In this document: positions 192 through 27,170 of the stretch, piece by piece
Layout of the letters: each line of letters starts with the position of its first letter
How positions within the stretch are numbered: position 1 is the stretch's first letter
Source of the DNA: a virus
Reading direction: 5' to 3' (one strand)
IMG/VR virus record: IMGVR_UViG_3300006752_000151
Coordinates: 1-28,465 of that record
Length of the DNA stretch: 28,465 bases
The notes under the pieces: generated by a model
Told to the model about the DNA's origin: nothing
Seen by the model: only the letters and a program-made list of their open reading frames with translations
Database searches by the model: none
Program-made: the position numbers and the translations under genes

Positions 192-482
192 ATGAGTGAT
201 ATCGTAATATTCGATCAGTTAGCCGATATTAAAAGGCTAACAAATGACGAAGCTTTTCTACATCTTGAGAAACGTTTTCAAAAGGAACGTGCCCGGTACC
301 TCGCAAAAATGCTTGACCGAGACACGACCGCGGAAGAAACAATTGCTATCAAAGCCGTCATTAACGCACTTGAAGGCTTATCGCCAATGGGTCTCGCAGA
401 GAAAACGCTTAAGATCGAATCAAAAAATAGAAAAGTAAAGCACCCCGAGCTTTTTAAAGTGAGAAGACCTGCAACCGGTTGA
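192..482 (+). CDS. Hypothetical protein, helical, 96 aa
   Basis: The predicted protein is charged and largely helical, with a central Glu/Arg/Lys-rich part (EKRFQKERARYL) and a basic C-terminus (HPELFKVRRPATG). No known domain is recognised. It follows the 28-aa ORF by 3 nt and has no Shine-Dalgarno sequence. Its last codons contain the perfect palindrome CAACCGGTTG (472-481), which is also the upstream element of the promoter proposed for the next gene. It could be a small packaging or structural accessory protein, but the sequence does not decide this. Confidence 0.6.
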   Translation: MSDIVIFDQLADIKRLTNDEAFLHLEKRFQKERARYLAKMLDRDTTAEETIAIKAVINALEGLSPMGLAEKTLKIESKNRKVKHPELFKVRRPATG

Positions 483-508: not shown

Positions 509-538
509 TACAGTAATTCTTTTAACCTTTTATATATT

Positions 539-2694: not shown

Positions 2695-2730
2695 CAACCG
2701 ATTGATGCAGGCTGCATCTTATTTAATTAT
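2695..2730 (+). promoter_or_regulatory. Putative phage promoter with dyad (CAACCGATTG ... AATTAT)
   Basis: CAACCGATTG (2695-2704) is followed immediately by the perfect dyad ATGCAG-G-CTGCAT (2705-2717) and then by AATTAT (2725-2730; TAATTA one base earlier). The 5' end of the element is 30 nt before the hexamer, as in the other copies. The predicted leader to the ATG at 2764 is about 27 nt and A/T-rich, with no Shine-Dalgarno sequence. Confidence 0.45.
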
Positions 2731-3450: not shown

Positions 3451-3519
3451 ATGAGAAGTTACGCAATTTTAAAAATCCTGTCCAACGAAAATTGGACCTC
3501 TCCAATGGAGGAATTATAA
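3451..3519 (+). pseudogene. Internally deleted copy of the gene at 4418 (22 codons)
   Basis: The frame starts MRSYAILKILSNENWT and ends after 22 codons. It joins the first codons of the 76-aa gene at 4418 (MRNYVII) to its last part (EILEILSNENWT), skipping about 50 residues. The shared 3' stretch (3465-3498 versus 4594-4627) is nearly identical at DNA level. The end also supplies GGAGG upstream of the next ATG (3524), one of the few plausible Shine-Dalgarno sequences in the region. It could be a relic or a leader peptide. Confidence 0.6.
3465..3498 (+). repeat. Direct repeat, copy 1 (flanks LamG cassette)
   Basis: 34 nt matching 4594-4627 with one mismatch; the longest identical run is 26 nt (3473-3498). 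The two copies bracket the LamG gene and most of the 76-aa gene, a unit of 1129 nt. Confidence 0.85.
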
Positions 3520-4417: not shown

Positions 4418-4648
4418 ATGAGAAACTACGTAATCATTGACGCTTCGGAAGTATCTTCTGTTGACTTTAACCAAGTACTAGAAACTTCCACCGATACATT
4501 AAGGTACAATGTAGCAGGAGATAAGACATTTGTTAAATATGAAGGTGAGACTCCTAGCTTTTTGGTTGGTAAGCCCAGCTTTTCGCATTCGGAAATTTTA
4601 GAAATCCTGTCCAACGAAAATTGGACCGAGAAGTTACCTGTAGAATAA
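4418..4648 (+). CDS. Small tail-region protein, 76 aa
   Basis: The protein begins MRNYVIIDASEVSSVDFNQV, continues with ETSTDTLRYNVAGDKTFVKYEGETPSFL and ends EILEILSNENWTEKLP. The pattern resembles small conserved proteins of tail regions in marine phages (recognised by eye, no name known). A deleted copy lies at 3451-3519. It follows the LamG gene by 18 nt and precedes the next gene by 1 nt, so all three are probably co-transcribed. Confidence 0.6.
   Translation: MRNYVIIDASEVSSVDFNQVLETSTDTLRYNVAGDKTFVKYEGETPSFLVGKPSFSHSEILEILSNENWTEKLPVE
4594..4627 (+). repeat. Direct repeat, copy 2
   Basis: Partner of 3465-3498 (33 of 34 positions equal). It lies within the coding sequence of the 76-aa protein, encoding ILEILSNENWT. 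Confidence 0.85.
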
Positions 4649-4973: not shown

Positions 4974-5148
4974 CCACCCATGAGCCTGAACCGACATGAA
5001 TGTATAATTTATTTGTATCGGATCCTAATGCGAGGGATCCGGCAGGGTCTGAGCTTCGAGATTTTATATTATTCTCGGTATCTATAATTTTTACAAGGCC
5101 CCGTATAGAGTTGACCGCCGACCCGATAGCGCTTGCTAAATTACTCAA
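4951..5148 (-). CDS. Tail-module paralogue on the opposite strand, 65 aa
   Basis: The protein, MSNLASAIGSAVNSIRGL then TENNIKSRSSDPAGSLALGS and DTNKLYIHVGSGSWVVIN, is clearly homologous to the C-terminal half of the plus-strand protein at 2764 (TESNIRSRSGDSAGTIMYGT, DTDDLYIFDGSAW) and shares its N-terminal lead with that gene and with 5483. The start is TTG, overlapping the stop of the upstream HTH gene (TTGAGTAA), so translation is probably coupled. It is therefore a real gene, inverted relative to its relatives. Confidence 0.7.
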   Translation of the reverse strand: MSNLASAIGSAVNSIRGLVKIIDTENNIKSRSSDPAGSLALGSDTNKLYIHVGSGSWVVINTSPA

Positions 5149-5323
5149 AGGACACCCCCAGACTATTTTCTACATCTGACGCCAAATATCTTATGACCCG
5201 CGCGTTTATTTCTTTCCTCTCCCATCCATATTGTTTCGCCCAGCGTCTAATGGTTCCAGCAGAAACATCCATGCGCTCCCTGATTTGTCTTGGAGATAGG
5301 TATCGATTTTCTCTTGCACCCAT
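5141..5323 (-). CDS. Small helix-turn-helix DNA-binding protein, 60 aa
   Basis: LSPRQIRERMDVSAGTIRRW (residues 9-28) reads as a helix-turn-helix of the kind found in small terminase subunits, excisionases and MerR/HTH_17 proteins; ERKEINARVIRYLASDVEN follows as a helical tail. It precedes a tail-module paralogue in a two-gene minus-strand operon and diverges from the long fibre gene at 5483. Its start codon is abutted by AACCGATT (5324-5331) and its promoter contains CAACCGGT, so it may bind that motif and regulate itself; this is inference. Confidence 0.6.
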   Translation of the reverse strand: MGARENRYLSPRQIRERMDVSAGTIRRWAKQYGWERKEINARVIRYLASDVENSLGVSFE

Positions 5324-5385
5324 AACCGATTAGTAACGCTCATTTGCGGTCAGTGCGACCGGTTGTAAAACCGGGCAACCGATTG
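5324..5385. promoter_or_regulatory. Divergent regulatory region with repeated AACCG(A/G)TT
   Basis: Three copies of the motif lie in 62 nt: AACCGATT 5324-5331, ACCGGTTG 5358-5365 and CAACCGATTG 5376-5385. A perfect dyad CCGGTT-GTAA-AACCGG occupies 5359-5374. On the minus strand CAACCGGTCG (5365-5356) and TACTAA (5335-5330) place the HTH gene's ATG exactly 42 nt from the motif start. On the plus strand the copy at 5376 could serve the fibre gene at 5483, but its -10 is weak (GATCAT, 5406-5411). Confidence 0.55.
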
Positions 5386-5482
5386 AGAAACCGCTAAATA
5401 TAGGCGATCATTCTCCTTACGGGAAGCACAGGCTTTTCTATTTTAACCCAGATTAATCTAACCCAAAAATACATACAAAACT

Positions 5483-6487
5483 ATGTCTAATATTCTATCA
5501 CAAATCGGTAGTGCAGTAAAAACCAAGATCGACGGAGTTAATTCCGCAATCTCGGACGAAGAAGCAGCACGTATAGCCGCTGACAGCACTCTTACCACAA
5601 ACCTCGCAACCGAAGCATCAACCGCTAGGGCAGCAGAAGCAGCTAATGCTACCGCTATAAGCGATGAGGAAACTCGCGCAACCGCAGCAGAAGGTGTATT
5701 GACCAGCAATCTCAACACTGAGATCTCTGATCGTACCACCGCAGTTTCTAACGAAGCATCCGCTCGTGCAGCTGCTGACACCACTCTTCAAGGCAACATC
5801 GACGCTGAAGCTACCACCGCTAGAGCCGCAGAATCTGCTAACGCTACTGCTATTTCTGACGAAGAAACTGCTCGTATCGCTGCTGTTTCTTCTGAAGCAA
5901 GCACCAGAGCTTCCGCAGACACCGCTCTTCAAGGCGAAATCGACGCTGAAGAAACCCGTGCAATTGCTGCTGAAGGAGTTCTTACCGCAAACCTCGCACA
6001 AGAAGTTACTGATCGCCAAACCGCAGTTTCCAATGAAGCATCAACTCGTGCAGCAGCAGTTTCCGCATTGGACGCAGCAAAAGCTAACCTTGCTGGCGCG
6101 ACCTTCACCGGTGCTGTAAACGGTACTGACTTGGTTCTTTCCGGTAATCTTACCGTTCAAGGTACCACCACAAGTCTTGAAACTGTTAACTCCCAGGTTA
6201 AAGACTCGATCATGCTTCTCAATGACGGAGCAAATGACAGCGCTAACAACGGAAATGACGTTGGGCTTATCATGGAACGTGGATCCTCCGAGGACAATGT
6301 TGCATTGGTATTCGACGAAGGTGAAGACAAGTTCGTATGCTACAAAACTAGCGCAACCGCATCTTCGACCGACATCTCCAGCGATGACTCATCCGCTGAG
6401 CTTATGGACATCAAAGTTAATGATGTTTTCATCGGTGCTGACAACCTTGGTTCTTTAGCAGAATTTACATCTGCATTGAATGCATAA
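5483..6487 (+). CDS. Coiled-coil tail fibre protein, 334 aa
   Basis: Residues 1-15 (MSNILSQIGSAVKTK) are the lead shared with the proteins at 2764 and 4951. Residues about 20-205 are Ala/Glu/Thr-rich degenerate repeats with motifs such as AISDEETAR, ARAAE.AN and VSNEAS.RAA, forming a long helical shaft. Then comes FTGAVNGTDLVLSGNLTVQG, the common fibre transition, followed by a beta-rich tip (SIMLLNDGAND, DVGLIMERGSSEDNVALVFD). This architecture is typical of fibres in marine phages. It lacks a Shine-Dalgarno sequence and is followed by a strong terminator. Confidence 0.8.
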   Translation: MSNILSQIGSAVKTKIDGVNSAISDEEAARIAADSTLTTNLATEASTARAAEAANATAISDEETRATAAEGVLTSNLNTEISDRTTAVSNEASARAAADTTLQGNIDAEATTARAAESANATAISDEETARIAAVSSEASTRASADTALQGEIDAEETRAIAAEGVLTANLAQEVTDRQTAVSNEASTRAAAVSALDAAKANLAGATFTGAVNGTDLVLSGNLTVQGTTTSLETVNSQVKDSIMLLNDGANDSANNGNDVGLIMERGSSEDNVALVFDEGEDKFVCYKTSATASSTDISSDDSSAELMDIKVNDVFIGADNLGSLAEFTSALNA

Positions 6488-6518
6488 TTCAAAGAGCCTT
6501 GTAAATTGAATCTCTTAA

Positions 6519-6552
6519 GGGGCTGGAGGCAATTCCTCCGGCCCCTTTTTTT
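6519..6552 (+). terminator. Rho-independent terminator after the fibre gene
   Basis: The stem pairs GGGGCTGGAGG (6519-6529) with CCTCCGGCCCC (6535-6545), one G-T wobble, across the loop CAATT. Seven T residues follow (6546-6552). It closes the tail-fibre transcript just before the small membrane-protein genes. Confidence 0.9.
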
Positions 6553-6558
6553 ACGCTA

Positions 6559-6966
6559 ATGAAAATCGTCCTCGCTATACTTGTACTACTATCATCGTCA
6601 TGTAGTTTTAAAAAGCTGTACCCTGTTGCCGGTGCAACCGTAGGTGGTGGAGTAGGGGCCTTGGTCGGAGGACCTGGAGGTGGGGCCCTTGGCGCATTTG
6701 CTGGAGCTGCTAGCGGGGAGGTTTTAAAATCAGAAGAAGAAGTAAAAGAAGCAGTCGCAAAGGTTGAAGCTTTAACTTCCGGAGATGTAAAAAAGATCGT
6801 GGAACTCGGTTTAAATGAGCACAAGGGGTGGTTCCAGAAGACGATCGATGGTATTTATGATGTACTGATGCTCGGCGCTTTGGCTTCGATAATCTATTTC
6901 ATCTTTCAATTTTGGTACGGCAGACATTTTGTAAACAAAAAACTAAAAACAGATAATTTAAAATGA
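6559..6966 (+). CDS. Lipoprotein-like membrane protein with glycine zipper, 135 aa
   Basis: The start MKIVLAILVLLSSSC looks like a lipoprotein signal with Cys15 as the possible modified residue, although Ser at -3 is not ideal. Residues 23-53 are a glycine-zipper stretch (GGGVGALVGGPGGGALGAF). Residues 55-85 are charged and helical. A C-terminal hydrophobic helix (LGALASIIYFIFQFWYG) is followed by a basic tail. Stop and next start overlap (ATGA). With the holin-like gene that follows, a role in lysis or envelope passage is plausible but not shown. Confidence 0.6.
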   Translation: MKIVLAILVLLSSSCSFKKLYPVAGATVGGGVGALVGGPGGGALGAFAGAASGEVLKSEEEVKEAVAKVEALTSGDVKKIVELGLNEHKGWFQKTIDGIYDVLMLGALASIIYFIFQFWYGRHFVNKKLKTDNLK

Positions 6967-7115
6967 GTGATACGCCTATGATTGTTGGATTTGGGGGGAC
7001 TGTAGCAACTGTTTCTTTGGGACAGTGGAGTGATATAATTGCAATCGTTTGCGGTATAGCAACGACTGCCTATATGATCACTAAACTTATTCAAACACTT
7101 AAACACAAAGACTGA
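6963..7115 (+). CDS. Putative holin-like single-helix membrane protein, 50 aa
   Basis: Starts at ATG 6963 overlapping the upstream stop and ends at TGA 7115, overlapping the next start. A short glycine-rich N-terminus is followed by one hydrophobic helix (DIIAIVCGIATTAYMI) and a basic tail (KLIQTLKHKD), the layout of small one-helix holins. No endolysin is visible nearby, so the holin assignment rests on topology and context only. Confidence 0.5.
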   Translation: MSDTPMIVGFGGTVATVSLGQWSDIIAIVCGIATTAYMITKLIQTLKHKD

Positions 7116-7252
7116 TGGCTAAAGAATTTAAACACTGCGAAAAATGCGACCCTGCAAGAAAAAATCTTTGCGCTAAATTCGGCACCTGCCTTGGTAAAGA
7201 TAAAGCCAAAAAAGGCGATAAGAAACCTGTTCGTAAAGGTACTTACGGGTAA
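7115..7252 (+). CDS. Small Cys-rich basic protein, 45 aa
   Basis: The ATG overlaps the upstream stop (TGATGG). The sequence has four cysteines as C-x2-C-x7-C-x5-C (CEKC, C19, C25), which could bind one zinc ion, followed by a Lys-rich tail (KDKAKKGDKKPVRKG). It might bind nucleic acid. No named family is recognised. It is the last gene before the capsid promoter region. Confidence 0.55.
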   Translation: MAKEFKHCEKCDPARKNLCAKFGTCLGKDKAKKGDKKPVRKGTYG

Positions 7253-7264
7253 TTTTATTTCTTC

Positions 7265-7300
7265 CAACCGGTTACATTGGCGTAACCGATTGTATATCTT
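7265..7300 (+). promoter_or_regulatory. Putative leaderless promoter of the scaffold/capsid operon
   Basis: CAACCGGTTA (7265-7274) lies 42 nt before the ATG at 7307, and TATCTT (7295-7300) is at the expected -10 position, placing the predicted transcription start at or next to the start codon. A second motif copy, TAACCGATTG (7283-7292), lies in between and may be an additional operator. Confidence 0.55.
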
Positions 7301-7306
7301 CGCGTT

Positions 7307-8380
7307 ATGGAAACATCAATCGCGGAGGTTGAATCCCCGCAAGAAACAGGACAGGAACAGTTCAGCATTGAGCAGGCGTCAACCGACGAACTGCGCAGTG
7401 CATTAGGTATAACGCAGGAGCCTCAAGCCCAGGATCCAGAGCCAGTAGCCGAGGAGCAAATCCCGGAGACCCAAGCCGTGGAACCTATGCCGCAAGCCGA
7501 AAGCCAAGAGCCGGAGGTCGAAAGCCAAGAGGAGGCAGAGGAAGCTGAGGAAGCAGAGGACGAAAAGCTCGGGAAGCGGAGGATTAGACCTCGAAACGAG
7601 CTAGATCAGCAAGTCATAGATCTTTACAGATCGGAAGGATTTAGCGGATCATTTGCCGATGCATCTCGTGTAATATACGGACAAGAAACTGCTCCCACCC
7701 CTAATTCAAATCAAAATTTAACGCCCACACAGGATGAAGTCGAGGCGAACGAGCCCGACCCAATCGCAGGCATAGATCAACAGGCTGACGACATTCGCGC
7801 TACCATTCTTGAGCTTGAAGGAAAAGTTGAGAAAGCAGCGGAAGATCTTGAAACCACTGAAGCACTTAGGCTCCAGAGGGACATAATGAAACAAGAGCTT
7901 CAACTGCAAAACTTAACTCTCCGTAAACAGCAGATGGAGCAGGAAAGAGAGCAGCAGGTTTATCAAACCCATCGCAGTAAAGCGATGGAAAGCCGAGACA
8001 GAGTTTACGATCGTTATCCCGCTCTATCTGATAAGCAGTCTGTTTATCGGAAACAGTTTGATGATTATGTCGCGAACGCTCAATCGGACCCCGACTACGC
8101 AGCAGTTTTCAACTCGCCAAAATGGCCTGAATTACTCGCCAATGAATTTGCATCTATAGTTCCAGCACCGCAGGAAGCACCTCAGCCACAAGCTGTTGCT
8201 CCTCAGCCGCAGGCTCCACAGATGGGAACTCAGGCAAAGGTCTTGACGACGGGAACTGCCGCACAACCTGTAAACACCCCTGTAACTCGCGAAGGTTTAC
8301 TTCAACAAGTTCCCACTATGAGCAATAACGATTTATATGCCCTGCTTGGGAATCCTGGAGGAGCACAACCTTTAAGATAA
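7307..8380 (+). CDS. Probable head scaffolding protein, 357 aa
   Basis: The first 100 residues are strongly acidic and Pro/Gln/Glu-rich (ESQEEAEEAEEAEDEKLG). Residues 155-225 form a long coiled coil (AEDLETTEALRLQRDIMKQE, then MEQEREQQVYQ). Pro/Gln/Ala-rich linkers follow, and the C-terminus is LLQQVPTMSNNDLYALLG. This composition and its place directly upstream of the major capsid gene are typical of scaffolding proteins. Length is within the usual range. Assignment rests on context and composition, not on a diagnostic motif. Confidence 0.7.
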   Translation: METSIAEVESPQETGQEQFSIEQASTDELRSALGITQEPQAQDPEPVAEEQIPETQAVEPMPQAESQEPEVESQEEAEEAEEAEDEKLGKRRIRPRNELDQQVIDLYRSEGFSGSFADASRVIYGQETAPTPNSNQNLTPTQDEVEANEPDPIAGIDQQADDIRATILELEGKVEKAAEDLETTEALRLQRDIMKQELQLQNLTLRKQQMEQEREQQVYQTHRSKAMESRDRVYDRYPALSDKQSVYRKQFDDYVANAQSDPDYAAVFNSPKWPELLANEFASIVPAPQEAPQPQAVAPQPQAPQMGTQAKVLTTGTAAQPVNTPVTREGLLQQVPTMSNNDLYALLGNPGGAQPLR

Positions 8381-8417
8381 TCGGGGAAATCTAAAACCCT
8401 ATAAATAATTAAATAAA

Positions 8418-9944
8418 ATGGCTGAAAAATTCTCAACTCCTCCAGTTGTCCCAACTCAAGCCGACACCTTCGGTGCGAACTTGGGCAATGTGGATCTATT
8501 ATCAAACACAACGTCATACGGCGATCTTCTTAAAGGAGACGGTAATTCCGACTTACGCTCACGCCTTTGGTCCGAGCTCGTTTCTCGCGATGCTCGCGAA
8601 AAAAACGTATTCGCCAAGTTCATCGGCGGAGAAGGAAGCGGTAAACCAATCACTGAAAAACGCGATCTTAGCGCAGGCGGATCTGACAAAGTAACATTCA
8701 CTACTGTTGCACCAATTCGTGGACAAGGCGTCCGTGGGGAGTCTATCCTCAAGAACGCTACTGACACCCTCGATTTCGGAACTTTCAGTATCGAAGTTGA
8801 CCTTGTCCGTCACGCTGTCTCCTGGACCCAAGTCCTTAAGCTTATGCGCTTCACCGGTAAAACCATCGACCAGCTTTCTGCTGAGGTTATGTCCGAGTGG
8901 ATGTCACGCACCGAGCAAGACCAAATCCAATACTCCCTTCGTCAAATCTGCTTGAACACAGGCGGAAACTTGATCAGCGGATACGGAACCGGCGCAAACG
9001 GCGACCTTAAATATGTTGACGGTCTTTCCACCGACATCATCCAGGAAGCAAAACAAGCTCTTATCGCTAACGGCGGTGAGCCTATGAGCACTGGTGGAGA
9101 CATCAACCAAGAAATCCCTGGTTACTTGTTCTTCGCTCCTGACGCTTGCTTACGCCCCCTCCGTTCTGACCCCGACTACTTAGAAGCAATCACTCAAGCT
9201 GACGCTAGAAGTGACAATAATAAGTTGTACAACGGTTCATACGCTAAGTGGGACAACAACATCATCGCTAACCATAACGTTCTTATCGACACAGCTCGTG
9301 GACGCCAAGGTTCTCCTCTTCTTCCTACTTTCTACGCTTACTCAGCAGTTGCTGACGCAAGTGCATTAATTGGAGATACCAATGGAGATTTCATGGCTAA
9401 CTTCCGCGGAGCGTTTATCGACATCCCTGGTGGTGGCGGTACTGACCTTGTTGAAGAAGCTGGAGTTACCTACTACATCTTAGGTATCGACACCGACGGA
9501 ACCGTTGCTCTTTACTCTTACGACGCTGCTGCTGCTGCTACTGCTGGAGATTTCTCCAACATAAGCGGTGGTGCTTTAGCTCGTGTTGCTAATGCTGCAA
9601 CTGGTTTTGATGTTGCTAATATGGCAAACCTTAAAGCTGACGGATCAAACTCATTCTCCGCTGGCGCATTGTTCGTACAAGCCAACGCTCTTGGTACTCC
9701 TATCGGGTATGCATTGGCGATGGGTAAAGACGCGATGTACTACGCAAAAGGAAAAATCTACGGTGAGCAAATCTTCCATTACGACGATTTCGCTAACTCC
9801 GGAAACGAAGCACACCTCTCCGCAGTCGGCGTTCAGTCGGTTTACGGAATGGGAGCTCGTAAGGACACCCGCGGCCGCGTTCCTTCCGTTCAACTTGTTG
9901 AAGTTGTTCGTCAGGTTCCTGGTCTTTCCATTACTCAAGCGTAA
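8418..9944 (+). CDS. Major capsid protein (N4 gp56/DUF4043-like), 508 aa
   Basis: Landmarks of the N4-gp56 capsid family include LRSRLWSELVSRDAREKNVF followed by AKFIG, the ITEKRDLSAGGSDKVTF strand, RGQGVRGESILKNATDTLDF, DLVRHAVSWTQVLKLMRFTG and the C-terminal GMGARKDTRGRVPSVQLVEV. The length is somewhat above the common 350-420 residues; an extra Ala/Gly-rich section lies at about residues 320-410. No Shine-Dalgarno sequence: the upstream region is a run of A and T. Codon use is strongly biased, as expected for the most abundant protein. A terminator follows. Confidence 0.88.
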   Translation: MAEKFSTPPVVPTQADTFGANLGNVDLLSNTTSYGDLLKGDGNSDLRSRLWSELVSRDAREKNVFAKFIGGEGSGKPITEKRDLSAGGSDKVTFTTVAPIRGQGVRGESILKNATDTLDFGTFSIEVDLVRHAVSWTQVLKLMRFTGKTIDQLSAEVMSEWMSRTEQDQIQYSLRQICLNTGGNLISGYGTGANGDLKYVDGLSTDIIQEAKQALIANGGEPMSTGGDINQEIPGYLFFAPDACLRPLRSDPDYLEAITQADARSDNNKLYNGSYAKWDNNIIANHNVLIDTARGRQGSPLLPTFYAYSAVADASALIGDTNGDFMANFRGAFIDIPGGGGTDLVEEAGVTYYILGIDTDGTVALYSYDAAAAATAGDFSNISGGALARVANAATGFDVANMANLKADGSNSFSAGALFVQANALGTPIGYALAMGKDAMYYAKGKIYGEQIFHYDDFANSGNEAHLSAVGVQSVYGMGARKDTRGRVPSVQLVEVVRQVPGLSITQA

Positions 9945-9984
9945 GCTTGATGGCATTTCCCCTGCCCACAAATCCCTAAAACTG

Positions 9985-10018
9985 GCCTCTCCCCGGCATT
10001 GCTGGGGGGAGGCTTTTT
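9985..10018 (+). terminator. Rho-independent terminator after the capsid gene
   Basis: The stem pairs GCCTCTCCCC (9985-9994) with GGGGGGAGGC (10004-10013), ten pairs including one wobble, with a nine-base loop. Five T residues follow (10014-10018). It probably limits read-through from the highly expressed capsid gene into the tail genes. Confidence 0.9.
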
Positions 10019-10027
10019 ATATATATC

Positions 10028-10345
10028 ATGAAAATAATAATAATCGGAAAAAGAGATCAGATGGGAACTACTCCCGCTATTCGTGTTAAAGGTATGTCTC
10101 AAGTGAGATATCAGTTCTTATGGGACAAAGAAATTAGGCACTACGCTTATGAGCCTAAGAATCAAAAGGAAGTGGATGATATTTTTAGAACGCAGGGAAA
10201 ACTTTATAAGTCGATGTTTTTCTCCGTATGGCTGCCGGAGCCAGAGCTAGAGAAAGAGGTACAGGTCAGCGCAGGATCTAAAGCTAGACCCACCTCTAAG
10301 TCCAAGAAAAAGCAACCGGTAGAAAAAGAAGTCGTATCCGCATAA
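10028..10345 (+). CDS. Hypothetical capsid-adjacent protein, 105 aa
   Basis: The protein starts MKIIIIGKRDQMGTTPAIRV, has a folded-looking core (QVRYQFLWDKEIRHYAYEPK) and ends in a basic, disordered tail (ARPTSKSKKKQ). An alternative start is Met12. It lies between the capsid terminator and the adaptor gene, a place where head-completion or decoration proteins are often found; no family is recognised. The last codons contain the upstream element of the next promoter. Confidence 0.55.
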   Translation: MKIIIIGKRDQMGTTPAIRVKGMSQVRYQFLWDKEIRHYAYEPKNQKEVDDIFRTQGKLYKSMFFSVWLPEPELEKEVQVSAGSKARPTSKSKKKQPVEKEVVSA

Positions 10346-10348
10346 AAT
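10313..10348 (+). promoter_or_regulatory. Putative leaderless promoter of the adaptor operon
   Basis: CAACCGGTAG (10313-10322), inside the end of the upstream gene, is followed by TAAAAT (10343-10348). The ATG at 10355 is exactly 42 nt from the motif start. Confidence 0.55.
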
Positions 10349-10354
10349 CGCTTA

Positions 10355-11107
10355 ATGGCTGCGATTACATATTTAGCATTGCGGGATCAGCTCGCTTCCA
10401 TGCTTGGGGCGGACTCTCTCGCAGACCTCCCCCCAGTAGATCAGGACAGGGTTGGTATATTTGTAAACCAGGCATACCGTGAGTGTTACTCACCTATTGA
10501 TGGTAAAAGACCTATGTGGGCACAGAAAGGTTTCACGCTAGACTTTTTAGCCGATCAAGCAGGAGCAGACCTAACCCCAGATGTTGTATCCGTTGACAAA
10601 ATACCTGAGCTAGTAGGTGAGGGGCCTCTGTCACCCATGACGGGACCGGAAGCGGAAATCAAAGCGAGATCTATTTTTGCTTACGATTTCCGTGCACCTT
10701 CGGGAAGAGGGTTAAATTTCCCACACTACAAGGACAACGAACCGGAAAAAGGGAGACCGATCTGGTATTATTTAGACAATCGCGATCAGGGAGCTGATAC
10801 GAAAGTAGTACCCCGCTTCTATCTCTACCCTGTGCCAGATAAAGCGTATCAGGTAGAACTGTATGCAAACGTTGTTCCTTCTGATCTCGTCGCTGATGCT
10901 GATGAGCCCAGACTACCGGCTGATTTAGTCTGGGATATTTTATTCCCTATTGCGCAGGCAAAGCTACTGGCGGATCCCCGCTATAACGGTGCAAACCGTG
11001 AGCTTCTTGTTCGTAATGCGGAAGAGGCTAGAAAAAGACTAAGAACACTGATAAGCCCCCAAAAACACAAAGGCTCTCTTAGATTGACCAAGAGACCTGG
11101 GTTCTAA
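10355..11107 (+). CDS. Head-tail adaptor/connector protein, 250 aa
   Basis: The helical N-terminus (LRDQLASMLGADSLADL, then IFVNQAYRECY) and the C-terminal helices (LVWDILFPIAQAKLLADPRY, EEARKRLRTL) enclose a beta-rich middle (KVVPRFYLYPVPDKAYQVEL). This arrangement is that of phage adaptor (gp6-like/DUF6682-like) proteins that join portal and tail in short-tailed phages; I recognise the pattern by eye. It is the first gene after a candidate promoter and is followed 4 nt later by the next structural gene. Confidence 0.6.
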   Translation: MAAITYLALRDQLASMLGADSLADLPPVDQDRVGIFVNQAYRECYSPIDGKRPMWAQKGFTLDFLADQAGADLTPDVVSVDKIPELVGEGPLSPMTGPEAEIKARSIFAYDFRAPSGRGLNFPHYKDNEPEKGRPIWYYLDNRDQGADTKVVPRFYLYPVPDKAYQVELYANVVPSDLVADADEPRLPADLVWDILFPIAQAKLLADPRYNGANRELLVRNAEEARKRLRTLISPQKHKGSLRLTKRPGF

Positions 11108-11111
11108 GCCA

Positions 11112-12440
11112 ATGGCCAAAGACCTGACAATTCGGGAGTTAAACCGTCCGCAAATATCGCAGGACAACCAACTTGGATTCCAGAAAATTGTACGAAAGTA
11201 TGTGGTCGAAGGCGATCGCGTAAATCAGGCAGAGCTAAACTCCCCGGCCGACCCTTTATTTTTACCTGTTGGTGACACTGACACAGAATACACCGATCAC
11301 TATTTAGTTAATCAACAAATAGCCCCTGCAACCGGGGATATGGATCGTGCTTATCTGACGAGAGAGTTTATACAGCTTCGAAATCAGTTTTTCTCGGAGT
11401 CCACTAATCAGTCACATGATTTAATTAGGTTGAATCGTAAATATGCTGTTCTTCGTTCAGATGACGCGGTTCACGGGTACGGCTCAAACTGGGGTAAGCA
11501 CCCAAACAATTCAGAAAGTACCTCTTATTCTTCTGAGTACACTCCTTGGGATTACGCACCCGGTAAGGTGTCAGAGCCTAACGCTATAACTTATAACTAC
11601 TCTAACGATTCAGGTTTTACTTCAATCCCTCAAGTTTCTATTAACGGCGGGCAGCAGTCTCTTTTCGACTACCTTACATCCAATGTAGGGAATTCGGATA
11701 TGGGTAAATGGCTCCCCGGGCGGGCTTCGGTTTCTCAGTATATGCCTGGATTAGATATATGGGATGTTGAATGGATTACTCACGGCGCTCCTTATTGGAC
11801 CGTGGGAACCGCTAAAGGGTCTGGTTCAAAATCTACACCTTTGACGGTCATAGACTTCGACCATAACGGCTTAATAATTGACGACTTCGGCTCTAGTGGG
11901 GGGTCAGATCAGTCAAAAGTCATAGCTCGAACCAAAAACTTTTTTCATGTTGGTGAGTCTTTACCGGACAGCTTGGTTTCTATTTCTGGAGGGTCTGACA
12001 GCTCCTATGCACCCAACACTGTGCATGTGGATATCCAAATGCTAACTCGTGATCGTCAGCAAATATCAGAAACTAAGGTTTTTAAAAATGCCGTCTTTAA
12101 AGTCACGGGCACTGGGGCTTCTACAGGATTGAGGTTCCCCATTCAACCTGGCGGGTCTCTTCAGCAAACTGTGGCAACCCGAGAAAGTAAAAGAAGGCTC
12201 GTTTTTAATTTTACAGAAGATCCCGGAAACCCTTTTAGCTACTGTGTTTATAAGGGCCAGTATATCGCTAGGATTGGGGGAGCGATCTCTTGGACGAGGA
12301 GCCACTTGGTGACTACGGGAAGTACCGGCTCCACTACCAGGATCAACTCATCTACATCTAAAATCACCCCGATTTTCTCTTATAGTAATAACGGCACCGC
12401 TAAAAGAATCTGGAAAATAGAAATAACTTACATCGGGTGA
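11112..12440 (+). CDS. Putative virion/tail protein, 442 aa
   Basis: The N-terminal 110 residues are helical and polar (REFIQLRNQFFSESTNQSHD). The rest is rich in Gly, Ser, Thr, Tyr and Asn, as in beta-structured tail proteins (SINGGQQSLFDYL, DFDHNGLIIDDFG, IARIGGAISWTRSHL). No domain is recognised. It overlaps the next start (GTGATGG) and lies between adaptor and propeller genes, so a neck, tail or spike role is likely. Confidence 0.6.
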   Translation: MAKDLTIRELNRPQISQDNQLGFQKIVRKYVVEGDRVNQAELNSPADPLFLPVGDTDTEYTDHYLVNQQIAPATGDMDRAYLTREFIQLRNQFFSESTNQSHDLIRLNRKYAVLRSDDAVHGYGSNWGKHPNNSESTSYSSEYTPWDYAPGKVSEPNAITYNYSNDSGFTSIPQVSINGGQQSLFDYLTSNVGNSDMGKWLPGRASVSQYMPGLDIWDVEWITHGAPYWTVGTAKGSGSKSTPLTVIDFDHNGLIIDDFGSSGGSDQSKVIARTKNFFHVGESLPDSLVSISGGSDSSYAPNTVHVDIQMLTRDRQQISETKVFKNAVFKVTGTGASTGLRFPIQPGGSLQQTVATRESKRRLVFNFTEDPGNPFSYCVYKGQYIARIGGAISWTRSHLVTTGSTGSTTRINSSTSKITPIFSYSNNGTAKRIWKIEITYIG

Positions 12441-13078
12441 TGGATTTTGAAAGTGCTAACTTAGACGACCTCACCGAGGAAATTACTAGACTAAAAGAAG
12501 AGTTAAACAATCTTACAGAGGTTGTTTCTCAGTTAGACTCTCCAGCTAGTGTGGAGGACGACACTTCTCAAGCATTAATTGGAGGCAACAAAAAGCCGGT
12601 ACTTCACTGGATTGAACCCGTCGAATTTCAATACACATGCTCATTAATTCAAAGCCTCGATGACGCAAAAGTAGCGATGCGTATGGCGGTTACATACAGG
12701 GATGATGAGGATAACGGGAAACCTGAGGTTATGCATGGCGATTTTTTGATTTTAACCTGTGTGGATGAAACTGAAAAATCAGATCAGGATATCTTTAATA
12801 GTAAAATGTTTTTTGGTTTGTGTGTAGAACCCGATGGAGGGTTTCAAGGCGATATACCTGCACAATTCACAATTAACAATATGCCCAACAACCATCCTTC
12901 TGTAGCGGAAAAAATAACTGCCACTCACGGTCACGCAGATAGATTTATTATAGCATGGTCTACGACAGGTGGCTCAAGTGTGGGTGAGTTTGATGGGTGG
13001 AAAGAGTTAGAAATTTGTGAGTCCGGATCCGTCAGTACGATATATGTCCCGTATTTCACAGAAAACCCAAAACCGTAA
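12437..13078 (+). CDS. Putative structural protein with N-terminal coiled coil, 213 aa
   Basis: Residues 8-36 (LTEEITRLKEELNNLTEVVS) form a short coiled coil that could trimerise the protein. The remaining 165 residues look like a beta-domain (FQYTCSLIQSLDDAKVAMRM, HGDFLILTCVDE, FDGWKELEICESGSVSTIYV). No family is recognised. The start overlaps the previous stop. A trimeric tail appendage is the simplest reading. Confidence 0.55.
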   Translation: MMDFESANLDDLTEEITRLKEELNNLTEVVSQLDSPASVEDDTSQALIGGNKKPVLHWIEPVEFQYTCSLIQSLDDAKVAMRMAVTYRDDEDNGKPEVMHGDFLILTCVDETEKSDQDIFNSKMFFGLCVEPDGGFQGDIPAQFTINNMPNNHPSVAEKITATHGHADRFIIAWSTTGGSSVGEFDGWKELEICESGSVSTIYVPYFTENPKP

Positions 13079-13092
13079 CCTAGCACTTAGTC

Positions 13093-13713
13093 GTGGCTAA
13101 GTTAATTCACACCGCTGTAAAAAAACAGCTCGAACACTATAACGCACCAAGCGGCTGGAGTTCTGTGTCTCTGCCAGTTTACGAGTCATGCTTTGACGAA
13201 TATGGATTTGGGGATTGGTCTTTCATAGGAGCTACAGGCCCCACATCATTTACCTCGTCCAAAACAGGTGCTTCTGCTAGTATAACTTTATTGGATGTAG
13301 GGACCGGAACTAACGCTCTTCAACGGGCTGATATATTCATAGCTAACCCTGGTTGTACACCTGGTGAATACACATTGGACATCACAGGAATTATTGAAAC
13401 CTATAATTACGGTTATGATAAGCTGTCGGTTTCTGTAAACGATGAGCTTATAGATCTTGAGGGCACTATCCTAACGCATGCTAATGGATCCGATAGCTAT
13501 GTTTATTCTAACGGTTCTTTTGAAATAACCTCGCAGTTTGATGACCAAGACAGCAGTGACCCAGGGTCGTCAGTCTATGTACCTACAAGAAATATAACGG
13601 CGGAAGGCCCGTGTTTTACCCAGATTACTTTCTGGTCCAGTACCGGGGACGCACAACACAACACCACAAGTTTAGGAAATGTGAAATATGACATCGTGAT
13701 AACAAAAATATGA
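13093..13713 (+). CDS. Putative beta-rich virion protein, 206 aa (GTG start)
   Basis: Starts at GTG 13093, 14 nt after the previous stop. The sequence suggests a jelly-roll type domain: NPGCTPGEYTLDITGIIETY, YDKLSVSVNDELIDLEG, QITFWSSTGDAQHN and KYDIVITKI. It resembles a glycan-binding or tail decoration domain, but no family is recognised. It overlaps the next small gene by 4 nt (ATGA). Confidence 0.55.
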   Translation: MAKLIHTAVKKQLEHYNAPSGWSSVSLPVYESCFDEYGFGDWSFIGATGPTSFTSSKTGASASITLLDVGTGTNALQRADIFIANPGCTPGEYTLDITGIIETYNYGYDKLSVSVNDELIDLEGTILTHANGSDSYVYSNGSFEITSQFDDQDSSDPGSSVYVPTRNITAEGPCFTQITFWSSTGDAQHNTTSLGNVKYDIVITKI

Positions 13714-13862
13714 GCGATAAAGAAAAATCTAAAGGTCTGGGTGATACCGTAAAAAAGGTAACTGAAGCCCTTAAAATAAAGCAATGTTCAGCGTGTAAAC
13801 GCAGACAGGAAAAGCTCAACCGATTGTTTCCTTACAAACAAAAGCGTACAAATAAAGGGTGA
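13710..13862 (+). CDS. Small CxxC protein, 50 aa
   Basis: MSDKEKSKGLGDTVKKVTEA is followed by IKQCSACKRRQEKLNRLFPY and a basic tail. The C-x2-C-x3-R-x3-LN-x-x-FP pattern recurs in small phage proteins encoded near tail genes (recognised by eye; function unknown). Start and stop overlap both neighbours (ATGA, GTGA). The codons for LNRL contain CAACCGATTG, the upstream promoter element of the next gene. Confidence 0.7.
   Translation: MSDKEKSKGLGDTVKKVTEALKIKQCSACKRRQEKLNRLFPYKQKRTNKG
13817..13852 (+). promoter_or_regulatory. Putative leaderless promoter of the propeller gene
   Basis: CAACCGATTG (13817-13826) and TACAAA (13847-13852), inside the 50-aa gene, place the GTG start at 13859 exactly 42 nt from the motif start. 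TTGTTT-N17-TACAAA also fits a sigma-70 pattern. Confidence 0.55.
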
Positions 13863-16132
13863 GGTTTTTCCGGATACCATCCTTCACCGGGATCGAGTCG
13901 CATCGCGATGACGCCGATCGCGGGTCCCTTCGTGCAATCGAAGGCTGCTTGCCACACGGGCCGGGTGGCGTGCGCTCTGCTCCCGTGTGGGAAGAGGTAG
14001 GTGAGGTCGATATGTTCTCTGAAACAGAGTATAATATGATTTCGGCTGCTGATGACGGAAATGGAAACTCACTCCTGTTTGTATCCCGCCTCGGGCAGAT
14101 TACAGACATCGCCGTGCTATCTACAGAAAATACAGATGTCGGACCTTTCGGGGCTAACTATCTCGTTTCTGACTCTATCGTACACAACCAGAAAACCGGA
14201 GCCATTTCCCCAATAGGTGACAGGAAGTTTGCGGTGGGGGATGGAACCGCTGAGGCAGTCTATGTAGGAAAAGGTCCTCCAGGTGGATCCGCTTCAGTTT
14301 TTCCTGATGAGGTACTTTATCGCCAAGAATGGTCAAGATTCCCTAACTGTAAGCACTATGTGCAAGGACCGAATAAAACTATATTTGCCGCGGGTAACCC
14401 AGAAAAACCTTTAACCATTTATGTCTCGGAGCCTGCTGGATCGACTAACCCCAATGTAGACTCCCCTTACTCTACCGAGCTTACACCACCGGCAAATAAA
14501 GCGGGTAAGCTTAGCACAGTTGATATTTTGGCAAGCAAAGCGAGCCAGATAACAGCTTTAACATCTAACGGGAACCAGGTAATTGTGCACACCGACAAAG
14601 GATGCCATGTTCTATACGCCCCCTCTGCTGATCAGGCGAATACCGGATACCGAGTGGAGCAAGCCCCGTCTTCTGTTTTTTCCGCGGCTGTATCATCTCG
14701 AACAGCAATCTCAGATAACGGGTCTATGATCTTTTGGCTCGGTCACGACGGTCAGATATACAAGGACGAATCCGCTGGTCGAGGGTCGGAGGATGCAAAA
14801 AAATTCACTGATCCTGAACAAGCAAACTGGAAGTCTAAAGGTATATGGGAAAAAGCACACCCTAAAGACCTGTCGGACTCTTTCTCATTTTACGACCCTC
14901 AATCTGGTTATTACTGGGTTTTTATAAGATCTTTGGCGTCCCTCGACTACGCAGGTTCACTAAGCCCTAACAGACCTACTATGCTCGAAGCTTTACCGGC
15001 CGCCCCGAGCGTCCCAGGAACTTTACAAGCTTCTATAGTAGCACCGTCGGAGCCTTTAACTTTAGCAGCTTTACCTCAAAACCCAGCTCAACCCGGTACT
15101 CTTCAGTCGCTTGTGCAGGCCCCCAGTTCTCCTACAGACTTTGTAGCTTTACCTACCAATGCACCGGCCGCGCCAACTGATTTAGTGGCGGCTCCCCCTG
15201 TATCACTACCTGTTTCAGGTCCTGTAAACCTTCAAGCTTTAGAATCAGGGCCTCTAGCTGGGCCAACTGATTTATCTGCTCTTATGCTAGCACCTGCCGC
15301 GGGGCCCACTAATTTAAGCACCTCCTTACAGAGTCTTGCACCTGGCTCCGGACCATCGGGTTTAACTGCTTCTTATGAGTGGGATCAAGCGGAGGCTTTT
15401 GCACAAAGTGGAAACCTTTTAGGTTTTATATCAAGAGTTGTTAATAATGTTCCGTCGCTAAGCACTTCAACCTGTGGAGTTGGCTTTAGAAACGCCTGCC
15501 CATCAACTTTTCAAGGGACTATAAACCCCGCCACCGGACTACGGGCAACGGGTGACGGGACCGGGACCAATCCATACATGACGGAATGGTATCCGAATCA
15601 CAACATAGCGGCAACAACTGCAAAAGGCTACCAAGTGAATGCGGCCACTGATCTTTATAATGTGTGGTCAAACTTTTCTTATGAAGGAACTCGGGATCTT
15701 AATGACCTGGGTCAAAGCTTCGGACAATGGACTTGGCTTAACACGAATGGCGCACAACATTCATGGAGTTTTACAGTTCAAGGGGCTACTGCTGCATCGA
15801 CTTACTGGCTCGTTTACGACCCAACCAATTCTCAGTACTGTGTTGTCGAAGGCCGGTGGGCCAATGCCGGAAACAATAATGGAAACTACTCAATCGCACC
15901 TGTGTACCCTAAAGCAAACAATTTTAACAATGCTTTAGACCCAAACAACCCTTTCGGGACTTACATATTAAACAGCGGCATTAACACCTGGTACATTTTA
16001 CATGTGGGCAACGGTGTGAGCGACGCCGCCTTAGCCGTAGATACAGATTTTCAGGCAAGATATACCGTGCCATTCGCTTCAGTTAATGGAGTTGAGGTAG
16101 ACTGTAAAAACGGTACATCCAGAAATTTCTAA
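13859..16132 (+). CDS. Tail protein: beta-propeller-like N-terminus, Pro-rich repeats, C-terminal domain (757 aa)
   Basis: Residues 1-370 have repeated strands and Trp/Tyr-rich edges (SLLFVSRLGQITDIAVLS, GPNKTIFAAGNPEKPLTIYV, GNQVIVHTDKGCHVLY, GSMIFWLGHDGQIYKDES), as in propeller-shaped tail-tube proteins of podoviruses. Residues about 375-505 are Pro/Ala repeats of the form APxxPxxLxA, ending in LAPAAGPTNLSTSL, nearly the repeat of the protein at 891. Residues 508-757 form a separate Asn/Gly/Trp-rich domain (FGQWTWLNTNGAQHSWSF), possibly a receptor-binding tip. It starts at GTG, overlapping the previous stop. Propeller identity is inference. Confidence 0.65.
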   Translation: MRFFRIPSFTGIESHRDDADRGSLRAIEGCLPHGPGGVRSAPVWEEVGEVDMFSETEYNMISAADDGNGNSLLFVSRLGQITDIAVLSTENTDVGPFGANYLVSDSIVHNQKTGAISPIGDRKFAVGDGTAEAVYVGKGPPGGSASVFPDEVLYRQEWSRFPNCKHYVQGPNKTIFAAGNPEKPLTIYVSEPAGSTNPNVDSPYSTELTPPANKAGKLSTVDILASKASQITALTSNGNQVIVHTDKGCHVLYAPSADQANTGYRVEQAPSSVFSAAVSSRTAISDNGSMIFWLGHDGQIYKDESAGRGSEDAKKFTDPEQANWKSKGIWEKAHPKDLSDSFSFYDPQSGYYWVFIRSLASLDYAGSLSPNRPTMLEALPAAPSVPGTLQASIVAPSEPLTLAALPQNPAQPGTLQSLVQAPSSPTDFVALPTNAPAAPTDLVAAPPVSLPVSGPVNLQALESGPLAGPTDLSALMLAPAAGPTNLSTSLQSLAPGSGPSGLTASYEWDQAEAFAQSGNLLGFISRVVNNVPSLSTSTCGVGFRNACPSTFQGTINPATGLRATGDGTGTNPYMTEWYPNHNIAATTAKGYQVNAATDLYNVWSNFSYEGTRDLNDLGQSFGQWTWLNTNGAQHSWSFTVQGATAASTYWLVYDPTNSQYCVVEGRWANAGNNNGNYSIAPVYPKANNFNNALDPNNPFGTYILNSGINTWYILHVGNGVSDAALAVDTDFQARYTVPFASVNGVEVDCKNGTSRNF
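14985..15380 (+). repeat. Degenerate Pro/Ala coding repeats in the propeller protein
   Basis: About nine units of 13-17 codons follow the pattern P-x-x-P-x-x-L-x-A, the last ones reading APAAGPTNLS and APGSGPSGLTA. They are less regular than those at 1026-1277 but of the same type. They form a linker between the N- and C-terminal domains. Confidence 0.7.
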
Positions 16133-16137
16133 AAAAT

Positions 16138-16173
16138 CAACCGATTGATAAAACTCTAATTTAAAACCAAAAT
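16138..16173 (+). promoter_or_regulatory. Putative leaderless promoter of the FN3 gene
   Basis: CAACCGATTG (16138-16147) is followed by CAAAAT (16168-16173); the ATG at 16181 is 43 nt from the motif start. This copy is intergenic. TTGATA overlaps the motif as a -35-like hexamer with 17-nt spacing. Confidence 0.55.
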
Positions 16174-16180
16174 ACTGATT

Positions 16181-16465
16181 ATGGCATCGATTACTTTAAC
16201 ATGGACCGCCTCGGACACCGCAACCGGAGGGACGCCAACTAATTACGACATCTACCGGACTGTGGGTGATACGGACGAGCAGACCGTTGACGATTCAACT
16301 ACAGGTGCATCTAATAAAATTGCGGATGTAACCGGAACGGTCTTAACTTATGAAGACACAACCGTGACCGCGGGCTCCACTTATTCGTATACCGTAATCG
16401 CCAGAAACGCTGGCGGAAGCAGCGCGCCTGCCGACAATATTAACGCTAAAGGCATCTTAGCTTAA
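16181..16465 (+). CDS. Single-domain fibronectin type III protein, 94 aa
   Basis: The whole protein is one FN3 domain: ITLTWTASDTATGG (strands A-B with the core Trp), YDIYRTVGDTD (strand C), TVLTYEDTTVTAGSTYSYTV (strands E-F with the tyrosine corner) and IARNAGGSSAPADN (strand G). It resembles the FN3-like protein at 539. It is followed 5 nt later by the conserved 220-aa protein, and the pair has its own promoter candidate. Confidence 0.8.
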   Translation: MASITLTWTASDTATGGTPTNYDIYRTVGDTDEQTVDDSTTGASNKIADVTGTVLTYEDTTVTAGSTYSYTVIARNAGGSSAPADNINAKGILA

Positions 16466-16470
16466 ACCCG

Positions 16471-17133
16471 ATGGGACTCACGACTCCAGCGGGGTTTGGA
16501 GCTTACGCTTTTAATGAGCGTACAAAATCCTTAGCCGGCCCGATTGCGAACGAGGATATAACTGCGGTTGCCAATCGGGAAAACTCCTCTGAGATTTATT
16601 GCGTAACAACCGACCGGAAAGTAAAGAAAACCGATCTTCTTGATTTAAACGACGCATCATTTCCTGAATTTATAGACCCTTTTACTGATCTAGAAACACC
16701 TATAACTGAAGGAGTCATTGCGTCAGAATCAGGCCAGGGATTTCACTACCGGGGACTTTATCGACCCGCCCCGTTTGAGGAGGAAAGCACCGCAGATACC
16801 GTTATAGCGGACCCACTTTACTTTGCTGAATCTTACCTGGCGATTACAGAAACTCACTGGATGCACTTAGGCGATGAGCACAACGAAAAACAGGTTCACC
16901 GTGTAGACCTCGCGTTTCATAAAAACTCATGCGGCCACCTGTGGCTTTATGTAAAAAATGAATCCGGGAAAATTTCGGGGCAGTATAAAGGCATGCTAAA
17001 AGAGCACATGAAAGTCTTTACCAACATCCGAGGACGTCGGTTTAAAATTCAAATGCTTATAGCTACACACAAAAACTTTCCGTGGGCCTTACGCGAAATG
17101 TCTGTAGGGCACCTGTACGGAAAAAGCTTTTAA
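16471..17133 (+). CDS. Probable conserved tail protein, 220 aa
   Basis: Notable stretches are HRVDLAFHKNSCGHLWLYVK, NESGKISGQYKGM, VFTNIRGRRFKIQMLIATHK and PWALREMSVGHLYGKSF. The C-terminal strand pattern looks like the end of a tail-tube or propeller protein and may complete the assembly begun by the 757-aa protein. No named family is recognised. It is the last structural gene in the window. Confidence 0.55.
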   Translation: MGLTTPAGFGAYAFNERTKSLAGPIANEDITAVANRENSSEIYCVTTDRKVKKTDLLDLNDASFPEFIDPFTDLETPITEGVIASESGQGFHYRGLYRPAPFEEESTADTVIADPLYFAESYLAITETHWMHLGDEHNEKQVHRVDLAFHKNSCGHLWLYVKNESGKISGQYKGMLKEHMKVFTNIRGRRFKIQMLIATHKNFPWALREMSVGHLYGKSF

Positions 17134-17134
17134 G

Positions 17135-17174
17135 CAACCGGTAGAGTTTTACTTTCGTATACTTTAATATACGA
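17135..17174 (+). promoter_or_regulatory. Putative leaderless promoter with dyad TCGTATA/TATACGA
   Basis: CAACCGGTAG (17135-17144) is followed by TAATAT (17165-17170); the ATG at 17178 is 43 nt from the motif start. A perfect 7-bp inverted repeat (17155-17161 with 17168-17174) spans the -10 element, so it could be a repressor site or a 5' hairpin. Confidence 0.55.
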
Positions 17175-17177
17175 GGT

Positions 17178-17414
17178 ATGGATAACGAAAAAGAGCAGGA
17201 AAATAAAACTACTATATTAATTGATGACGTTGAGCATGTTTACGAAGACATGACCGATGAGCAGAAAGTGATCATCGAGCACATCACCGATCTTGGCCAC
17301 AAGTCCAGAAAAGCTCAGCTAGAGCTAGACCAGCTAAATGTAGCCAAAAACGGTTTTGTCTCTATGCTTAAAGATTCTCTGGCTACGCAGCCTGAAGAGT
17401 CCACAGACTCTTAA
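17178..17414 (+). CDS. Small acidic phage protein (DUF6447-like), 78 aa
   Basis: A short beta start, TTILIDDVEHVYEDMTDEQK, is followed by a helix, LELDQLNVAKNGFVSMLKDS. The layout, a small hydrophobic strand pair with 'DDxE' then a coiled coil ending in a Leu-rich helix, matches the DUF6447 family as I remember it. Function is unknown. Its last 32 nt overlap the end of the integrase gene on the other strand. Confidence 0.6.
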   Translation: MDNEKEQENKTTILIDDVEHVYEDMTDEQKVIIEHITDLGHKSRKAQLELDQLNVAKNGFVSMLKDSLATQPEESTDS

Positions 17415-18628: not shown

Positions 18629-18679
18629 TTTAGGATCTGGTATCCCATGGATGTGAGGGTTCGACCCCCTCCTCGGGCA
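18629..18679 (+). other. attP: attP core: 3' half of a tRNA-Leu(UAG) gene
   Basis: The sequence runs from an anticodon loop TTTAGGA (18629-18635, anticodon TAG) through stem TCTGG, a class II variable arm ATCC-CAT-GGAT, a perfect T arm GAGGG-TTCGACC-CCCTC (18655-18671), the acceptor strand CTCGGGC (18672-18678) and the discriminator A. The 5' half is absent: no complement to TCTGG or CTCGGGC lies upstream. This is what an attP looks like when a phage integrates at the anticodon loop of a host tRNA-Leu and restores its 3' end (established mechanism). It lies 53 nt upstream of the integrase start. Confidence 0.85.
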
Positions 18680-18699
18680 TATCCTTGATTATCAACGAT

Positions 18700-24244: not shown

Positions 24245-24252
24245 TAATATTT

Positions 24253-24265
24253 GTGGTGTGTGGTT
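24253..24265 (-). promoter_or_regulatory. Shared 13-nt element AACCACACACCAC before the polymerase start
   Basis: Read on the minus strand, AACCACACACCAC ends 8 nt before the ATG at 24244. The same 13 nt occur before the start of the 94-aa gene (27171-27183). The position suggests a translation- or expression-related element of early genes. Confidence 0.5.
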
Positions 24266-27154: not shown

Positions 27155-27170
27155 ATTTATTTAGTTTTAG

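Follow-up and report, generated by a model that had tools for sequence, protein, structure and literature searches.

A near-palindromic CAACCG box upstream of late genes in an uncultured phage family: predicted activator-dependent promoters with mostly leaderless transcripts

Introduction

In the virus record IMGVR_UViG_3300006752_000151 (28,465 bases, referred to at its full length as the window), the short sequence CAACCG(G/A)T begins at an almost constant distance upstream of six start codons, which raises the question of whether it marks a family of phage promoters from which transcription begins on the start codon itself. An original prediction had proposed such a family, and had attributed it either to a phage activator or to an altered sigma specificity. 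The analyses described here indicate that these sequences very probably belong to activator-dependent late promoters, with mostly leaderless mRNAs, in a temperate phage family relying on the host RNA polymerase. The promoters comprise a 10-bp near-palindromic box (consensus CAACCGGTTG), located at -42 to -33 from the start codon, and a sigma70 -10 hexamer (nAnnnT) at a fixed distance of 30 bp from the box; apart from the box, no -35 hexamer is conserved.

Promoter architecture and recurrence

The window contains 10 matches to the octamer CAACCGRT, at 472+, 474-, 2695+, 5358-5365-, 5376+, 7265+, 10313+, 13817+, 16138+ and 17135+ (the 472+ and 474- matches being a single palindrome), against an expected 1.59; none of 100 shuffled sequences reached that number. 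The distance from the box to the first start codon of the open reading frame (ORF) is 42 nucleotides (nt) for 5323(-), 7307, 10355 and 13859, and 43 nt for 16181 and 17178. These predicted coordinates were all confirmed, as were the six hexamers claimed at offset 30 (Table 1) and two copies, at 472 and 2695, that had been described as leadered, each with a -10-like hexamer. One further copy, at 5376+, had been missed; it diverges from the box at 5365-, the pair facing 5323(-) on one side and 5483(+) on the other. The motif as originally written proved to be real and incomplete, since it extends to the near-palindrome CAACCGRTTG, the right half of which falls where a -35 hexamer would have its TTG, at a spacing of 17 bp from the -10. 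The composite pattern CAACCGRT-N20-24-TANNNT matches the window four times (0.16 expected), while a scan for generic sigma70 promoters found no excess (18 versus 19.5 expected); judged as ordinary -35/-10 pairs, then, the late promoters are inconspicuous.

The same geometry recurs well beyond the window. A search with the capsid protein identified 111 IMG/VR contig stretches encoding a relative, from which 80 loci, on 80 related contigs, were kept; in these, 158 of 311 box matches are followed by a start codon at a distance of exactly 42 nt. When every 6-mer was scanned by position across 646 non-redundant genes, without prior choice of a motif, CAACCG at -42 was the top pair (41 seen versus 1.1 expected; z 33), and 25 permuted motifs yielded at most 5 matches at 41-43 nt, as compared to 44 for the real box. 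A logo of 38 non-redundant sites at the 42-nt distance displays T at -12 (.74), A at -11 (1.00) and T at -7 (.89), with the DNA between box and hexamer otherwise little conserved; A-11 and T-7 occur together in 34 of the 38 (expected joint frequency 0.077), and nAnnnT occupies -12 to -7 upstream of 75% of box genes versus 10% of other genes. A scan of IMG/VR with the full pattern returned, among the matches listed, 44 family contigs with a median following ORF of 331 amino acids (aa), 21 of which carry two sites, and 75 unrelated contigs with a median following ORF of 13 aa (that is, chance ORFs), none with two sites. In six long records the promoter-shaped copies cluster around the capsid and tail module, and copies elsewhere mostly lack the hexamer or the start codon. 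Fixed spacing between box and -10, a poor -35 and clustering at structural genes are hallmarks of activator-dependent phage late promoters, and all three are found here. The comparison with shuffled sequence and with relatives that was originally suggested thus produced a strong excess in the window and a recurrent geometry in the 80 contigs, over which box, spacing and -10 are conserved as expected of a promoter family. A literature search for CAACCG returned no description of such a box in the papers covered.

Conservation and selection on the DNA

Comparison of orthologues demonstrated that box and hexamer are kept upstream of the 7307 gene down to 42% protein identity, while the spacer DNA changes, and that they are kept likewise, with some losses, in the 10355, 13859, 16181 and 5323 groups; most 5323 orthologues carry CAACCGGT or CATCCGGT at -42. 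The claim that the -35 is variable while CAACCG is constant holds up well, the -35 being as poor as TTACAT in the 7307 group and TAGAAA in the 10355 group, in comparison to an almost invariant CAACCGGT. Orthologue alignments displayed no such conservation of box and hexamer upstream of the capsid gene or of genes 10028 and 11112, all of which appear to lie inside transcripts; the capsid gene has no CAACCG box of its own, and is presumably carried on the 7307 transcript.

Two of the promoters overlap coding sequence. The one at 10313 covers the end of gene 10028-10345, and the one at 13817 sits within gene 13710-13862, such that the GTG at 13859 overlaps the upstream stop codon. The latter box is embedded in a conserved peptide, LNRLF, for which only the codons AAC-CGA, AAC-CGG or AAT-CGG, followed by TTG, are used; these choices yield CAACCGATTG, CAACCGGTTG or CAATCGGTTG, the last of which is the exact reverse complement of CAACCGATTG. 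Relatives with a different peptide at this site retain CAAGCGATTG, and one of them (L045) retains it in another reading frame. The restricted codons and the change of frame indicate that the embedded copy is under selection at the level of the DNA, and that the site is dyad-symmetric.

Position of the transcription start

Transcription by sigma70 polymerase begins about 7 nt beyond the -10. In the major class of sites (class 1, with the start codon 41-44 nt from the box) the hexamer ends 6 nt before the ATG, and the base about 7 nt past the -10 is the A of that codon. A hexamer-to-ATG distance of 12 dominates, a pyrimidine is found at -1 in 28 of the 38 non-redundant sites, and in three loci (L044, L075 and L088) the hexamer and the ATG are both displaced by one. 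Leaderless (TA-led) genes have a published signature, a TANNNT element whose first T precedes the start codon by approximately 12 bp (PMC3160421), and the 38 sites display it. Late mRNAs of this family are thus predicted to be mostly leaderless, with the 5' end on or within 1-2 nt of the start codon, and would do without the leader on which ribosomes normally dock; the original proposal to that effect gains strong support, at the level of sequence, from the fixed register of T-12, A-11 and T-7 with respect to the ATG.

A second class of sites combines the palindromic CAACCGRTTG with nAnnnT (often GATTAT) at the same offset of 30, a position at which the hexamer is found in 23 of 44 palindromic matches outside class 1, versus 1-8 at other offsets. 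Start codons of this class lie mostly 55-117 nt downstream, corresponding to leaders of roughly 13-65 nt, and the box at 5376 with its GATNAT-type hexamer is seen again in relatives. Because class 2 keeps the box and the offset-30 hexamer, these two elements belong together while the leader varies. The class 2 leaders in the window (515-538, 2735-2763 and 5440-5482) contain no Shine-Dalgarno sequence; stretches of TTAACC or TAACCCA, also seen in relatives, are shared among them some 15-45 nt before the ATG.

The absence of Shine-Dalgarno sequences at the predicted leaderless starts, which had been part of the original prediction, is true but not diagnostic, since such cores are rare throughout the family (12% of its other genes versus 8% in shuffled sequence); it was dropped as evidence for leaderless mRNA.

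The candidate activator

The proposal of a phage activator or altered sigma specificity finds support as a class of explanation in the co-occurrence of a phage-encoded protein resembling sigma region 4. This 95-aa protein (Table 1) is present in 13 of 19 long records; its gene lies 10.6-17.5 kb from the start of the capsid gene in the records compared, and the six remaining records stop short of 10.3 kb from that start. Among 13 homologues, which share 38-99% identity with the window member, the recognition helix of this protein hardly varies, and neither does the box. Weak Sigma70_r4 matches, at E values up to 0.01, were obtained for 11 of the 13 with PF04545 and for 9 with PF08281, and the predicted structure contains a helix-turn-helix (HTH) with helices at residues 42-89 (predicted local distance difference test score about 84-94), for which sigma chains appear at Z 4.5-4.9 among many HTH folds. 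Weak profile matches link it to PHROG 323 (D5-like, 1.5e-4) and PHROG 79 (Q-like, 1.5e-3), phage-encoded late regulators with a sigma-like HTH of the ArpU/RinA type. A search of 50,697 annotated phage records turned up no homologue of it. The 95-aa protein, whose gene lies by that of the integrase on the edge of the late module, is the most likely activator, at approximately an even chance. Two homologues (L109:9193-9468 and one on the minus strand of L118) contain an in-frame TAG within the stretch that matched, which may reflect mis-extension upstream, a pseudogene or recoding.

In the proposed mechanism, the activator would be made first, and would bind the box in place of a -35 contact and recruit the host sigma70 holoenzyme; transcription would begin either at the first base of the ATG or 1 nt upstream, producing a leaderless mRNA, and genes further along each transcript would be translated by other means. 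Structural genes, and in one clade the 60-aa HTH gene at 5323(-) as well, would then be expressed from CAACCG promoters. The most specific form of this scheme, in which a free-standing sigma-region-4-like protein gives the host sigma70 polymerase its own contact at CAACCGGTTG, and the start codon is locked to +1 at most promoters to generate leaderless late structural mRNAs in a family with few Shine-Dalgarno signals, is put forward tentatively, at somewhat less than an even chance.

Alternative explanations

Several observations weigh against the interpretation given above. The 38 non-redundant sites represent about six orthologous gene groups, so that counts drawn from them are not independent and an exact probability overstates the case; independent support is provided by the different genes, both strands and a common geometry. 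T at -7 is missing from two of the six window -10 hexamers (5323 and 13859), and the GTG at 13859, overlapping the previous stop codon, could be read by translational coupling. Leaderless initiation would further depend on the sigma70 spacing of the host and on its tolerance of leaderless mRNA. As for the 95-aa protein, it is tied to the box by co-occurrence, its window member scores below the curated cut-offs (21.3 bits versus 25.7 for PF08281; 17.4 versus 24.1 for PF04545), and comparison of its model returned generic HTH folds only (best Z 6.8). A link by co-occurrence also leaves room for the box of these late promoters to be read by a host factor, either an alternative sigma or a host activator. 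The AAC core of the box does resemble the -35 elements of extracytoplasmic function (ECF) sigma factors; however, promoter-shaped boxes are confined to the phage late module, a restriction typical of phage-encoded activators, and the -10 is sigma70-like. ECF promoters have about 23 bp between box and -10 (start to start), and the 30 bp found here is too long for them; an ECF-type promoter was rejected on this spacing, and a host factor is rather unlikely. The 60-aa HTH protein might instead activate the late promoters, including its own, given its small size and the box at -42 of its own promoter in most relatives. Its gene was detected in no more than 8 of the 19 long records, however, and promoters are kept in records without a detectable copy (G005, G006, G012 and G016); moreover it is apparently transcribed from a late promoter, so that something else must start the cascade. 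Such a role is very unlikely, and as a universal activator this clade-limited protein was rejected.

The dyad symmetry of the box, the TTG of its right half at the -35 position with a 17-bp spacer, and the presence of an integrase would also suit a repressor operator placed over the -35 of ordinary sigma70 promoters that are silent in the prophage. That possibility is highly improbable in light of the poor -35 elements and almost invariant CAACCGGT described above, which form the pattern of activated promoters, of a fixed position that operators do not need, and of a different dyad (TGTTATAC-N4-GTATAACA) in the early promoter region. It is quite unlikely that the promoters are real and that transcription starts up- or downstream of the predicted base, giving short leaders or making an internal codon the true start. 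The choice of start varies by 1-2 nt around the 7-nt distance from the -10, and a leadered class with the same box does exist, but the dominant 12-nt distance, the joint shifts of hexamer and ATG, the pyrimidine at -1 and A at +1 (which suit a purine start), and the identity of the starts as first codons of their ORFs all favor the predicted register. Finally, the location of two boxes (10313 and 13817) within coding sequence, one of them in LNRLF, could suggest a motif without any promoter role that follows from biased coding or composition, such as conserved Asn-Arg-Leu codons. The shuffled sequences, the 6-mer scan, the permuted motifs, the palindrome-preserving codon choice, the other reading frame in L045 and the intergenic copies of the same geometry reduce that probability to a negligible one, and such an artefact was rejected.

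Genomic setting

The features of the window are collected in Table 1. The protein encoded at 7307, for which no PHROG match was found, is inferred to hold a scaffold or assembly position. The replication module, on the minus strand, includes a family A DNA polymerase that shows only about 25% identity, to phages of many hosts. A sequence resembling a tRNA 3' end at 18640-18681, next to the integrase, is probably the attachment site, and two phage tRNA genes, Thr(GGT) and Ala(TGC), lie at 27363-27522. The family appears to be large, uncultured and aquatic, and is probably temperate. No capsid relatives were found among the 50,697 annotated phage records; a capsid profile matched only two contigs of metagenome-assembled genomes, labelled archaeon and Gammaproteobacteria, with no further match in 369 genomes of the latter contig's class and 300 of its phylum. 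A search with the integrase gave no match, and a sequence search against solved structures gave none at E below 0.2.

Table 1. Promoters, genes and modules of the window
Feature	Position	Strand	Details
Structural module	1-17.4 kb	+	
Leadered promoter	472..481 (box)	+	box CAACCGGTTG, perfect palindrome; -10-like TAGTAT 503-508
Gene of 472 promoter	starts 539	+	leader ~25 nt
Leadered promoter	2695..2704 (box)	+	box CAACCGATTG; -10-like AATTAT 2725-2730; gene 2764-3276
60-aa HTH protein	5141..5323	-	excisionase/terminase-small-subunit-like HTH; own CAACCGGT promoter upstream
Promoter	5330..5365	-	box CAACCGGTCG 5365-5356; -10-like TACTAA 5335-5330; predicted +1 at ATG 5323
Divergent leadered promoter	5376..5411	+	box CAACCGATTG; -10-like GATCAT 5406-5411 (offset 30)
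Gene of 5376 promoter	5483-6487	+	leader ~65 nt
Predicted leaderless promoter	7265..7300	+	box CAACCGGTTA; -10 TATCTT 7295-7300; ATG 7307
357-aa protein	7307..8380	+	directly upstream of major capsid gene
Major head protein	8418..9944	+	phrog_334, 4e-18
Predicted leaderless promoter	10313..10348	+	box CAACCGGTAG; -10 TAAAAT 10343-10348; ATG 10355
250-aa tail/adaptor-like protein	10355..11107	+	phrog_10775, 1.2e-4
Promoter	13817..13852	+	box CAACCGATTG; weak -10 TACAAA 13847-13852; GTG 13859
757-aa late protein	13859..16132	+	tail-module position
Promoter, predicted 0-1 nt leader	16138..16173	+	box CAACCGATTG; -10 CAAAAT 16168-16173; ATG 16181
94-aa fibronectin type III domain protein	16181..16465	+	PF00041, 1.5e-6
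Promoter, predicted 0-1 nt leader	17135..17170	+	box CAACCGGTAG; -10 TAATAT 17165-17170; ATG 17178
78-aa protein	17178..17414	+	final gene of late module
Integrase	17383-18576	-	adjoins tRNA-like 3' end
Candidate activator, 95 aa	19033..19320	+	sigma-region-4-like HTH; recognition helix EESVRVRLR; close to integrase

Additional elements were noted in the window. A dyad without mismatches, TGTTATACATTAGTATAACA, lies at 27194-27213, upstream of the leftward early genes, and GTTATACA is found also at 18721, 20477 and 25121 (4 found versus 0.7 expected); these sites are possibly early repressor operators, one of them just upstream of the operon of the candidate activator. The early genes 24244- and 27154- share an element, CCACACACCAC, shortly before the start codon (24250-24265 and 27160-27180). 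Strong terminators at 6517-6547 and 9984-10014 have stems that end within ~15 nt of the next ATG (6559 and 10028), an arrangement that is conserved in relatives. Near-identical stretches of AAATCCTGTCCAACGAAAATTGGACC occur at about 3462-3498 and 4590-4626; the latter lies at the end of a small gene and the former has no gene, and is perhaps the remnant of a duplicated one.

Relation to known systems and significance

The middle mRNAs of phage T4 carry leaders, and the MotA box lies at about -30. At those promoters the MotA box, acting with AsiA, replaces the -35 element (PMC7403470), an arrangement similar to that described here in that a phage-specific box substitutes for the -35 hexamer and is followed by a sigma70 -10, and different in that the present box is near-palindromic and located at -42 to -33. 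No MotA or AsiA homologue was identified among the window proteins scanned. For the Thermus phage phiYS40, a review describes most middle and late mRNAs as having no leader, and reports changes in IF2/IF3 (PMC3594737). Leaderless late mRNAs are also what is predicted here; that phage is unrelated and has a different host, and that account describes no activator box of this type. These two systems are the closest known, and the variant described here combines both features. TA-led bacterial genes (PMC3160421) reflect a property of the host genome and lack an upstream box, whereas in the present case the signature belongs to the promoters of one phage regulon.

With respect to the candidate activator, the GcrA protein of Caulobacter acts as a co-activator of sigma70 and binds DNA through a small HTH domain (PMC7403470). 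That domain is the top fold match of the HTH in the 95-aa protein (Z 6.8 over 48 residues); both would be small proteins acting with sigma70. The identity is 17-19%, however, GcrA reads methylated DNA, and the 95-aa protein ends just after its HTH with no C-terminal sigma-interacting domain; the resemblance may represent only a shared common fold.

One line is enough to state the rule for the promoters described here: CAACCG at -42, nAnnnT at -12 and ATG at +1. From it, transcription starts can be predicted in a family that occurs in many metagenomes, along with its operon heads and true start codons; a small candidate activator can also be named. If leaderless initiation is true, then the choice of late genes to be expressed would be made by a promoter box and not by a ribosome-binding site, and the translation of leaderless viral mRNA would become directly testable.

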